Virus record (IMG/VR): IMGVR_UViG_3300023103_000067
Coordinates: 1-41,713 of that record
Source: a virus
Direction: 5' to 3' (one strand)
DNA length: 41,713 nt
Part shown: piece by piece, positions 12,416 to 16,443 of the stretch
Layout of the letters: each line of letters opens with the position of its first letter
Numbering within the stretch: the first letter of the stretch is position 1
Notes under the pieces: generated by a model
What the model saw: the letters and a program-made list of their open reading frames with translations, nothing else
Databases searched by the model: none
What the model was told of the DNA's origin: nothing
Program-made: the position numbers and the translations under genes

Positions 12416-13007
12416 CGCCAGGCTCTTCGATGCTGAACGACAGGCCGACCTCGCGCGCGAAATCGGTAGTCCAGATAGAGGGGTCGAAGATGGCGAACCC
12501 TTCGATGGTCGGGTCGCCAACCTCGATCAGGTCGCCATCCGATGGAGGCACGCCCAGCATGGTTTCCAGCGGGATGGTCATCTGGCCCAAGTCGTTGGCC
12601 TGGGCCTCCTCGACACAGCAATAGATCCGGCGCGGCCCGGTCACCGGGAAGTGGGTCAGAAGCTGCCCCTGACGCATGGCATAGGCAGGCGTGAACCCAT
12701 CCGCGTCGAGGCTCGCGCCGGCCTGTCCCGCGCCGTTCACGCGGATGACGGCGCCCGGCGTCCCGATCTCCAGATCGTGCTGGGGAACCCGGATCGAGAC
12801 CAGGCCGTCTTCGCTGCGAAGCCGGATGAAGGCCAGGCTGTCGGAATAGCCCATGCGCGGCATGACGAAATCGAACGCGTAACGCGAGCCTTTGCGGCCG
12901 ATCCGCTTCAGGTTTCCCCCGACGGCGGAGCGAAGTTCATTGCGCGTCGAGATCAAGCGCGGGGTGGCGCCGTCCGGTTCGGGAAGGGCCGGCAAGGCGA
13001 ACGTCAT
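12408..13007 (-). CDS. Distal tail protein (199 aa)
   Basis: A 199-residue protein directly downstream of the tape measure, the usual place of the distal tail protein (Dit-like or DUF2460-like). It is beta-rich (FVMPRMGYSDSLAFIRLRSE, HDLEIGTPGAVIRVNGAGQ) with Arg-rich N-terminal strands, as expected for a hexameric ring at the tail end. The start overlaps the tape-measure stop (ATGA). The family name is not certain; the assignment is positional plus composition. Confidence 0.68.
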   Translation of the reverse strand: MTFALPALPEPDGATPRLISTRNELRSAVGGNLKRIGRKGSRYAFDFVMPRMGYSDSLAFIRLRSEDGLVSIRVPQHDLEIGTPGAVIRVNGAGQAGASLDADGFTPAYAMRQGQLLTHFPVTGPRRIYCCVEEAQANDLGQMTIPLETMLGVPPSDGDLIEVGDPTIEGFAIFDPSIWTTDFAREVGLSFSIEEPGDG

Positions 13008-15355
13008 CGGCGACCCCGTCCATACTTGCGCTGCAGGCCCATGTCGCGCAGCGCCGCCGTCCGGCCGTACTCGCCGCCAGCGGCCCCTGCCCGGAGCGAA
13101 ACATCTGCGGCGTGCGCCTTCAGTTCCCCGACCAGACCGGCCGCCAGAACCGCGCCTTCGGCATGCACGATGAAGGTGTTTCCGCCCCCGGCGCCGCCGC
13201 GACCCAGCGCCGCCGGGACCCGCATGGCCTGCGCGACCTGGGCGGCCGGGATAACCCGCGTTCCGCCGGCCATATTGGTCAGCACCTCACCCTGGTGGAC
13301 ATAGGCCAGACCGGCGGGGGCGCTGTTCGTGCCCGAGGCGAAGCCCGGGATACGCCCCTTGAACGCGCTGAGCGCCGCCGACAGCAGGCCGCCGCCACCC
13401 TTGCCGCTGCCCATCAACGCATCCGTCACGGCGTCGGCCAGATTGTCTTTCAGCCGATCGCTGACCCGATCAAAGATGCCGCTGAGGACGCCTTCCAGCC
13501 CGCCGTCCTGCAAGTCCTCCAGCATGCCCCGGACGCCGTCCCGGAAGCCCGCGCGCGACCGGGCGGCGATTTCCTCGTCGACCTCTTTCGACGCCTGACT
13601 GATGCCCGCGCCGAAGTTCCAGCGATTGTCGCCCTCGATCTGACGGGCACGCTGGCGGATGGCGTCAGCCCGCTCCAGTTCGCGCACGCGCGCCCGGTCG
13701 CCGTCCAGCCGGGCGAGGGTCAGCTGATGCTCCGCTGCGGCGTCGGCGAGGACGCGCGCCTGAACCCGAACCCGGGCTTCGTCGATGTCCCGCTGGTTTG
13801 CCTTGGCGGTGCTGGTAGCAGTGACCAGATCGAGGCCCTTGGCCATCAGATCGTTGATCGCGGCTTCCAGCTCGTTTTCGCGCTCCAGGACAAGGGCGTA
13901 CGCTTCATTGCCCTGTAGGCGCTGTTGCTCGACCCCGACCGCCCGTTGAGCCGTCCGCAGCGCCCGGTCGTTGGCGTCCTCGCGCGCCTCATCCAGTTTG
14001 ACCTGATCCGCCGCGGCCCTTGCTGTGGCGGCGGTCAGGGTCAGACCGGCATCCTGATAGGACTTGATCCGGCCCGCGATGTCGTTCTCGCGCTCAAGCG
14101 ATCGGACCAGCTCCTGATTGTTGGTCAGGCGAGCGATCTCGATCGCCAGCGTCCGCTCCAGTTGTGCCCGACGGTCCGCCAGCTCTTTGGCGGATGGCCC
14201 GGTCTTGCCCCGGCTCGGCCCGCCGACGTCCTTCAGCTCCTCGTCCGGCTTGTCTCCGCCCGGTGCCGGATCTTTCCGGCCCGCTAGCTCAGTCGCGATG
14301 GCTTCCCGCTGGCGGTTGATTTCGCCAAAGCGCATGCGGGCGCCGGGGTTCATCTGGCTGGGCGACCCTAGGCGGTCGATCAGACCTTTCTGTTCGCGCG
14401 CGAGGCGTTGATCCTGCCGCCGCAGCGTATCGTCCCCGCGCTGTTCAAGGCTGCGCCAACTGGCCGCTACGTCGCTCAGCCCTCGCGCGAGCCAAGCGAC
14501 GAAGCCCATCAAGGTAACGATGTGCGGGCCTAGGTCGACGATGGCGCTCTTCAGGTTCACGTCGATGACTTTGGCCATCGTCTCGAATGCCTGATTGGCG
14601 TCGGCGCCCTTCTTGACCAGCTCGGCGTCCATGATGATGCCGAGACTGCGCGCCTTCTCACGCAGCTCATCCAGCCGCCCGGCGCCCTCCCGCGCTAGAG
14701 ACACCATGGGGCCGAGGCCCAGCTTTTCGGCCACGGCGGCGCGCTCGGCCTCAGTCCCCAGTTTGGAGATCCGGTCCAGAACCTTGTTCAGGCCGTCTTC
14801 GGTGCTGTCGAAGGCCCTCAGGTCGTCGCCGCCGAAGCCCAGCCGCTCGAACCACTTCTTGGCCTTGCCCCCGGCCATCCCCTCGCCGAGCTTTTTCTGG
14901 AACCCTTCAATCGCGGCGTCGGCGTCCTTGGCCTCCCCGCCGACTTCGGTCAGGGCGAACCGGTATTCCTGCAGGGCCTCGGTGCCGATGTTCAGCTTCT
15001 GGGCGGTGTCGTCGATCTCATCGGCGAAGCGCATCGCCTGGATCGCGCCCGTGACCGCCAGGGCAGCGGCGCCGACGCCGGCAGCGGCGGCGAACCCGGC
15101 GGGACCGAGGGCTTCCAGTGCATTGCCGAAGATCGGGATGCGCGCCGACCCGGCTTCGAAAGCAGCAAGCCGGCTCCGATCAAACGTCTGATCCAGGAAC
15201 TTGCCGACGTCGACCTTGCCGATGGCCTTGTATCGGCTCTCGATCTTGTTGGCCGTGCCGTTGACGTTGGCGATAGCCTTGGCGTTCTGCTTCTCCAGCG
15301 TGCGGATGTCGGCCGACATCTGCCAGACCAGTTGCTCGAGATCGGTGCGCGCCAT
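13004..15355 (-). CDS. Tail tape measure protein
   Basis: A 783-residue protein. It has an N-terminal coiled coil (about residues 1-60), a hydrophobic Ala/Gly-rich segment (AGFAAAAGVGAAALAVTGAI, near residue 90), long charged helices with heptad-like repeats across the middle (about 300-560), and a C-terminal motif ASGTNSAPAGLAYVHQGEVL typical of lambda-type tape measures. It sets tail length and is ejected with the DNA. It lies just after the frameshifted chaperone and is the largest helical protein of the late operon. ATG at 15355 has GGGAG upstream. Confidence 0.9.
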   Translation of the reverse strand: MARTDLEQLVWQMSADIRTLEKQNAKAIANVNGTANKIESRYKAIGKVDVGKFLDQTFDRSRLAAFEAGSARIPIFGNALEALGPAGFAAAAGVGAAALAVTGAIQAMRFADEIDDTAQKLNIGTEALQEYRFALTEVGGEAKDADAAIEGFQKKLGEGMAGGKAKKWFERLGFGGDDLRAFDSTEDGLNKVLDRISKLGTEAERAAVAEKLGLGPMVSLAREGAGRLDELREKARSLGIIMDAELVKKGADANQAFETMAKVIDVNLKSAIVDLGPHIVTLMGFVAWLARGLSDVAASWRSLEQRGDDTLRRQDQRLAREQKGLIDRLGSPSQMNPGARMRFGEINRQREAIATELAGRKDPAPGGDKPDEELKDVGGPSRGKTGPSAKELADRRAQLERTLAIEIARLTNNQELVRSLERENDIAGRIKSYQDAGLTLTAATARAAADQVKLDEAREDANDRALRTAQRAVGVEQQRLQGNEAYALVLERENELEAAINDLMAKGLDLVTATSTAKANQRDIDEARVRVQARVLADAAAEHQLTLARLDGDRARVRELERADAIRQRARQIEGDNRWNFGAGISQASKEVDEEIAARSRAGFRDGVRGMLEDLQDGGLEGVLSGIFDRVSDRLKDNLADAVTDALMGSGKGGGGLLSAALSAFKGRIPGFASGTNSAPAGLAYVHQGEVLTNMAGGTRVIPAAQVAQAMRVPAALGRGGAGGGNTFIVHAEGAVLAAGLVGELKAHAADVSLRAGAAGGEYGRTAALRDMGLQRKYGRGRR

Positions 15356-15368
15356 CCGTCGATCTCCC

Positions 15369-15997
15369 TCAGGCTGATGGCTTGCGCCGCCTCGCCAGCG
15401 CCCGTTCGGTGCGCTCGCGGTGTTCGTCCATGGAAGGGGCGGGCGCCTTCGCCGGCCCGGCGTTGGCGCGGTTGAAGCCCTCGACCATCACGCCCAGCTG
15501 CCAGGGCGTCATGTCCGCGACGTCGCGGGCGCTCAGTCCGAGGACGGCGCCCTGCCCGTAGAACCAGCCCCATCGGAACCGTCCGTCGGCGCGCCGCGTC
15601 GGGTCCGGCCCGCCCGACGCGGCGCCGGTTTTTTTGCCTTGTCCTTCGCGTCGTCGGCGTCGCCGATGATGAAGGCTCGCAGGACGGACGACGCCAGAAT
15701 GGCGCAGCGTCCGATGTTGCCGGGGACCAGTTCTCGCTGAACCAGCCGCGTCGCCGCGTCCCGGTCCATGCCCCCGCCGATCAGGCCGTGGCGGAGGGTG
15801 GAACGCAGATCCCCGACCAGAAACGTCCCGGTGGACAGGCGGGTGAACACCGCCATGAGGCTGGCCTGACCCGCGTCGAATCCCCGCTTGCGCAGGTCCT
15901 CGGCGCGGGCCTCTTCCAGTTCCTCGGCGGCTCCGATGGTCAGGAGGAAGGCTTGATCCTTCTCCCCGAACAGTTCCTCAACGACGCCGGTCGACAT
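15369..15997 (-). CDS. Tail assembly chaperone, -1 frameshift fusion (gpGT analogue, 209 aa)
   Basis: Reading slips back one base at the A7 run 15629-15635, after codon 123. Translation then continues for 86 codons to the stop at 15369-15371. The extension contains FRWGWFYGQGAVLGLSARDV and DMTPWQLGVMVEGFNRANAG. The latter is the conserved segment of the second tail chaperone domain seen as a separate small gene in alphaproteobacterial phages and gene transfer agents. It has no good start of its own except an internal ATG at the DMTPW Met, without a clear Shine-Dalgarno. By analogy with lambda, the fusion links the tape measure to the tube protein. Confidence 0.8.
15533..15997 (-). CDS. Tail assembly chaperone, short form (GTA gp10-like; gpG analogue)
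   Basis: A 154-residue protein matching the GTA-gp10 type tail chaperone: EELFGEKDQAFLLTIGAAEE, LEEARAEDLRKRGFDAGQAS and LRHGLIGGGMDRDAATRLVQ. The last 40 residues after the run of lysines become low-complexity Arg/Gly/Ser, which fits an out-of-frame tail past a programmed slip site. It lies between the tail tube and the tape measure, where lambda has gpG/gpGT. It chaperones the tape measure during tail assembly. The start shares one base with the tail tube stop. See the fusion form at 15369-15997. Confidence 0.85.
   Translation of the reverse strand: MSTGVVEELFGEKDQAFLLTIGAAEELEEARAEDLRKRGFDAGQASLMAVFTRLSTGTFLVGDLRSTLRHGLIGGGMDRDAATRLVQRELVPGNIGRCAILASSVLRAFIIGDADDAKDKAKKPAPRRAGRTRRGAPTDGSDGAGSTGRAPSSD
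15591..15637 (-). promoter_or_regulatory. Programmed -1 ribosomal frameshift site with stimulatory hairpin
   Basis: In the zero frame the codons are GCA AAA AAA CCG, so the heptamer A AAA AAA (complement of 15629-15635) allows tandem slippage by one base. Three bases downstream begins a perfect 13-bp GC-rich stem (15613-15625 with 15591-15603) with a 9-nt loop, an ideal ribosome-stalling structure. The -1 frame then stays open for 86 codons. Confidence 0.85.
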
Positions 15998-16443
15998 CAG
16001 CTGAAGTCGATATTGAAGTCGCCGGTCGTCGCGATCGTGATGTCGAACGCCTGGTCCTCGCGGTGCGCGCCGCCCAGGCCGATGTTCTCGATCAGCCACG
16101 ATCCATCGATCTCGAAGCCGCCATTCTCGGCGTCCTGGACGATCTGTCCGTTGAACGGCAGGCCGGTCTGCCAACGCTGGATCAGGGCCTTGGCCGAGGC
16201 GGCGTCCGCCATGCCCGAGCCGGTGAACTTCACGTCCTGACCCTTGACCCGGCGCGTGGTCTTGCTGGGCTTGGACGGGTCCGTGCAGTTTGCGCGGCTG
16301 CCGGTGAAGATGTCGGACGTCAGGTCCAGTTTCGAGTTGGTGTTGATCGAACAGCTGGCGGTGAAGGTCTCGGGTCCGGAGCCGGAGCCGAACAGGAAGA
16401 CCAGCTTTTCGCCGGCCACGTTCTCGGAATAGACATCGGTCAT
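15997..16443 (-). CDS. Major tail tube protein
   Basis: A 148-residue beta-rich protein. Its N-terminus (DVYSENVAGEKLVFLFGSG) and the pattern FTASCSINTNSKLDLTSDIF followed by KFTGSGMADAASAKALIQRW and a C-terminal TIATTGDFNIDF match the tail tube proteins of TP901-1/GTA-type siphophages, which polymerise as hexameric rings. The ATG at 16443 has a strong AAGGAGG 5 bases upstream, as expected for a highly made structural protein. It lies between the tail terminator and the tail chaperone. Confidence 0.85.
   Translation of the reverse strand: MTDVYSENVAGEKLVFLFGSGSGPETFTASCSINTNSKLDLTSDIFTGSRANCTDPSKPSKTTRRVKGQDVKFTGSGMADAASAKALIQRWQTGLPFNGQIVQDAENGGFEIDGSWLIENIGLGGAHREDQAFDITIATTGDFNIDFS

Follow-up and report, generated by a model that had tools for sequence, protein, structure and literature searches.

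A probable lambda G/GT-type -1 frameshift in a GTA-gp10-like tail assembly chaperone gene of a viral genome record

In virus record IMGVR_UViG_3300023103_000067 (positions 1 to 41,713, the whole stretch of 41,713 nucleotides being called the window below), the gene flanked by those for the major tail protein and the tape measure protein is, with high confidence, a lambda G/GT-type tail assembly chaperone gene with a programmed -1 frameshift, as judged from its sequence and that of its relatives. Two proteins would be made from one start because some ribosomes would slip at a run of seven A residues (A7) before a strong hairpin. Most ribosomes would read the zero frame and release a 154-aa short protein. 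Others, fewer in number, would be held by a 13-bp stem while two tRNA-Lys occupy AAA AAA, and would slip back one base on A_AAA_AAA, yielding a 209-aa fusion. On the lambda model, the short protein would serve to coat the tape measure protein and the extension to recruit the major tail protein; how efficiently ribosomes slip would set the ratio of short protein to fusion. That ribosomes slip, how often they do so and what each product does is what we infer here. The features of the locus were as follows.

15997..16443, minus strand: major tail protein gene (phrog_13196 major tail protein, 1.5e-8; PF06199 under the cut-off)
15533..15997, minus strand: zero-frame ORF, predicted short tail assembly chaperone (G-like), 154 aa (PF11836, 1.5e-12, above the cut-off; phrog_8985, 5.7e-19)
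15629..15635, minus strand: A7 slippery heptamer in the frame A_AAA_AAA (shared at this place by 20 of the 133 distinct relatives, a count that includes the window)
15626..15628, minus strand: spacer CCG, 3 nt (family peak 5 nt)
15613..15625, minus strand: 5' arm of the 13-bp stem
15604..15612, minus strand: loop, 9 nt
15591..15603, minus strand: 3' arm of the 13-bp stem
15369..15629, minus strand: -1 frame extension (putative T-like domain), 86 aa plus stop (phrog_18467, 1.4e-6; no start codon ahead of the conserved core; pN/pS 0.22 among relatives)
13004..15355, minus strand: tape measure protein gene (matches to several tape measure PHROGs, phrog_8125 being the best with a name, 3.9e-16)

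The whole element (ORFs, A7, stem and tail genes) was located on the minus strand, which the initial annotation of this DNA had left unstated; the coordinates it gave for A7, and its zero-frame reading of GCA AAA AAA CCG, were exact. Genes were arranged in the order major tail protein, chaperone, tape measure, as in lambda. The stop of the major tail protein gene overlapped the chaperone ATG (TGATG), and the tape measure gene started 13 nt past the -1 stop. The -1 ORF ended at 15369, and the 86 extra residues previously read in that frame were recovered in a computed slip product of 209 aa, comprising 123 shared and 86 new residues. Because the zero frame reads GCA AAA AAA CCG, A7 lay in the frame A_AAA_AAA, a slippery heptamer of the form X_XXY_YYZ in the correct frame and inside the ORF overlap. 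When the codons were resampled synonymously from the phage's own codon usage, an in-frame A_AAA_AAA appeared in 0.2% of the resamplings and any of the listed heptamer types in 1.1%. The sequence AAGGA (15642-15646, minus strand), 6 nt before A7, might act as a weak Shine-Dalgarno-like stimulator, although its presence cannot be told apart from codon constraint. Across the family, predicted Shine-Dalgarno-like pairing upstream of the heptamers averaged -6.2 kcal/mol vs -3.9 kcal/mol in the gene body; a stimulator of this kind is not claimed, since the purine-rich acidic linker confounds the signal. Elsewhere in the window, an ORF on the plus strand (40613-41713) reached the final base of the record and was tyrosine recombinase/integrase-like by eye, suggesting a temperate phage.

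The short protein scored 47.8 bits against PF11836 (Phage_TAC_11, GTA-gp10), for which the curated cut-off is 27.8. No Pfam family matched the window extension, PF09550 (Phage_TAC_6) included, and PF09550 was matched by the extensions of only 2 of 67 relatives (best E 0.0042). When the extension was compared with the separately encoded second chaperones of gene transfer agents (GTAs), hhalign returned an E-value of 5e-4 and a probability of 31%, a weak hint of relationship in the expected direction. The window extension and 64 of 67 aligned members matched phrog_18467, a family of unknown function that appears from these matches to be the frameshift-encoded second domain. PF11836 and phrog_8985 carry the name tail tube protein, yet their members lie next to a distinct major tail protein and make up a chaperone pair. 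AlphaFold2 models of both domains were confident and mostly helical. Viral fold matches of the first domain included proteins named tail assembly chaperone, with weak E-values; the extension model had no significant match among viral structures, and PDB profile and fold searches returned no credible homologue.

A five-member alignment was made from phage records, and genome and virus collections then yielded 160 relatives; each domain was given its own profile, and both profiles were run against all three forward frames. With the fusion protein alone as query, viral contigs gave no match, the five-sequence alignment being the query that succeeded; the tape measure protein as query brought up no relatives. 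Both domains were present in 154 loci. In 146 of these the second lay in an overlapping ORF read in the -1 frame, in eight it was fused to the first without a change of frame, and in none was it in +1; the seed alignment included -1 members, though the second domain was sought in every frame. All four relatives found only via the major tail protein showed the same layout. The -1 loci comprised 133 distinct regions, and many loci were from Rhizobiales; locus counts are not independent events because of shared ancestry.

A candidate slippery heptamer was present at a fixed place, a median of 29 nt past the first domain, in 127 of the 133 distinct -1 loci. The heptamers were G GGG GAG (46), G GGA AAA (37), A AAA AAA (20), G GGG GAA (10), G GGA AAG (8) and six others. 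The overlap held 76 canonical motifs and 72 G GGG GAR in 4,217 positions, vs none and two, respectively, in 11,127 codon positions of the first-domain body of the same genes. The enrichment over the gene body was 400-fold for canonical motifs and 76-fold for G GGG GAR, the latter count being partly post hoc because the class was recognised on these same loci; G GGG GAR is independently known as a slip sequence. By eye, five of the six loci without a heptamer (L112, L121, L137, L157 and L162) carried NNG GAA AAG where the heptamer usually lies, making this another candidate slip sequence.

The variety of slip sequences bears on two other readings of A7. In one, RNA polymerase adds an extra A within the run, and the altered mRNA is read into the extension to give a near-identical product. 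A7 itself and the longer runs of a few relatives (e.g., GGA AAA AAA AAG in L007) would suit such slippage; most relatives, however, show the same -1 layout with G GGA AAR or G GGG GAR, whose runs are short, and an RNA stem near +5 downstream suits ribosomal frameshifting, so that we regard slippage of the polymerase as distinctly unlikely. The other reading takes A7 as a sequencing or assembly error in a gene that is really one continuous ORF. Homopolymers are error-prone and eight relatives are fused in one frame, but the two-frame layout is the family rule across many different slip sequences, leaving this explanation barely credible. Only one pair among the eight in-frame fusions had a slip motif (L093 and L094, identical in the junction stretch). 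Their two domains share a frame through an A run (CCT AAA AAA AAA AGC), and one A fewer would restore the usual -1 layout; the junction may reflect an indel or a sequencing error, or be a site of slippage.

In the window, no ATG, GTG or TTG was found in the -1 ORF before the conserved core, bearing out the earlier remark that the extension lacks a proper start, and 125 of 127 loci had no start codon between slip site and domain. These absences weigh against the extension being a separate gene with its own initiation by coupled re-initiation, as in GTAs. The second chaperone is indeed a separate ORF in true GTA clusters, as the initial annotation had said of related elements, and the annotation of phage 16-3 includes a separate downstream ORF, p016; but the annotated p016 start falls inside the conserved domain, and a separate gene would leave the heptamers unexplained. 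We consider this arrangement very improbable for the window. Taken together, the family appears to encode the domain pair in three ways: frameshifted, fused in one frame, or as separate genes in GTAs.

Frameshifting into the extension, the preferred reading, was also examined through selection on the -1 frame, the comparison for synonymous excess that had been proposed earlier. Among 66 pairs of relatives, pN/pS of the extension was 0.22 in the -1 frame vs 1.54 for the same DNA in the first-domain frame, a descriptive ratio since the pairs overlap, and changes were mostly at codon position 3. On this comparison, the -1 domain is under purifying selection.

The hairpin downstream of A7 had been described as flawless, and its 13-bp stem, starting 3 nt past the heptamer and closing a 9-nt loop, was indeed 100% complementary (-32.9 kcal/mol). 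A 13-bp stem was reached in 11 of 5000 dinucleotide shuffles of the downstream 52 nt; the MFE z-score was more modest in this GC-rich DNA (-1.6 for 81 nt and -3.1 for 50 nt). The 3-nt spacer is shorter than the 5-nt family peak, a point against the frameshift reading. Among 126 loci the window stem was the strongest, so its supposed unusual strength held; it was not unique, being the extreme case of a family-wide stem. When loops were limited to 12 nt, long stems looked rare, and when longer loops were allowed the recurrent stem appeared. The best stem after the slip site was stronger across the family than in dinucleotide shuffles (stacking of -16.8 vs -12.3 kcal/mol, p = 1.4e-16), its start peaked at 5 nt after the heptamer, and the effect held with regional composition kept (p = 1.7e-17). 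Swapping 3' halves between loci weakened the pairing to -13.3 (p = 3e-11, a statistic that ignores relatedness), showing that the two arms of each locus are fitted to one another. Formal covariation within two subfamilies was weak in RNAalifold because the stem pairs hardly vary, which also counts against the frameshift reading. An Rfam search returned chance-level matches only.

Read on the plus strand, 15591-15635 was the best terminator-like site of the region, with 12 GC pairs and then CGGTTTTTTT, antisense to the tail genes. The inverted repeat and T7 might accordingly be an intrinsic terminator on that strand, unrelated to translation. The tail genes sit on the minus strand, though; relatives with G GGG GAG or G GGA AAA, hence no T run, have the stem at the same distance, and a terminator would leave the conservation of the -1 domain unexplained. 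We give this reading almost no weight. A7 and the hairpin could alternatively act both ways, as a -1 frameshift signal in the sense direction and as an intrinsic terminator stopping antisense transcription into the chaperone gene. Such a double role is unlikely; were it true, the unusual strength of the stem would come from the double demand.

The programmed -1 frameshift proposed in the initial annotation is thereby strengthened: the -1 relation, the slip site and the stem recur across the family, and the extension appears to be under purifying selection. Locus anatomy, conservation, selection in the -1 frame and the missing start of the extension are read off the nucleotide sequences themselves. 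For GTA-gp10-like chaperones in phages and prophages of Alphaproteobacteria, they add up to a comparative case for G/GT-type frameshifting that is well supported. Frameshifting of this type in tail genes is a known phage strategy; what is new is this GTA-gp10-like locus. The result also corrects database annotation, in which the first domain is called 'tail tube protein' and the second is unnamed or missing, and public annotation usually misses the frameshift in this branch of Alphaproteobacteria phages. Downstream stems are described as rare at phage tail frameshift sites in a passage of PMC3091744 that cites Xu 2004, and a recurrent stem in this family gains its interest against that statement.

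Lambda is the closest parallel. Its slip sequence is G_GGA_AAG, and the gpG/gpGT frameshift was reportedly the subject of work by Levin in 1993 and by Xu, Hendrix and Duda in 2004. As with gpG/gpGT, the window locus is flanked by the major tail protein and tape measure genes, would shift in the -1 direction and would give a short protein and a C-terminally extended fusion. Unlike lambda, it has A_AAA_AAA, a very strong stem 3 nt downstream and different domain families. The parallel to lambda G/GT drawn earlier stands; the different slip sequence is no oddity, A7 being one of several interchangeable sequences in the family. Tail chaperone frameshifts are widely conserved in long-tailed phages, and in lambda the G part has the tape measure protein as its binding partner, while the T part has the major tail protein (PMC5009743).

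RcGTA-type g10/g10.1 (PF11836, PF09550) shares the Pfam family of the first domain; unlike in the window, the second chaperone is a separate ORF in the GTA clusters examined. Rhizobium phage 16-3, RHph_TM3_3_14B and Bradyrhizobium ppBeUSDA76-1 have the same two domains, the second overlapping in the -1 frame, with slip sites of G GGG GAR or an A run (ppBeUSDA76-1); their records carry no annotated frameshift. G GGG GAA is documented in roughly a thousand motifs of SEA-PHAGES, with G:U re-pairing as the explanation (PMC10885494), and the tail chaperone of corynephage phi16 shifts at GGGGGAA (PMC5506516). The hosts of these phages are Actinobacteria, and their kind of slip sequence differs from the A_AAA_AAA of the window but is that of 56 of its 133 distinct relatives.
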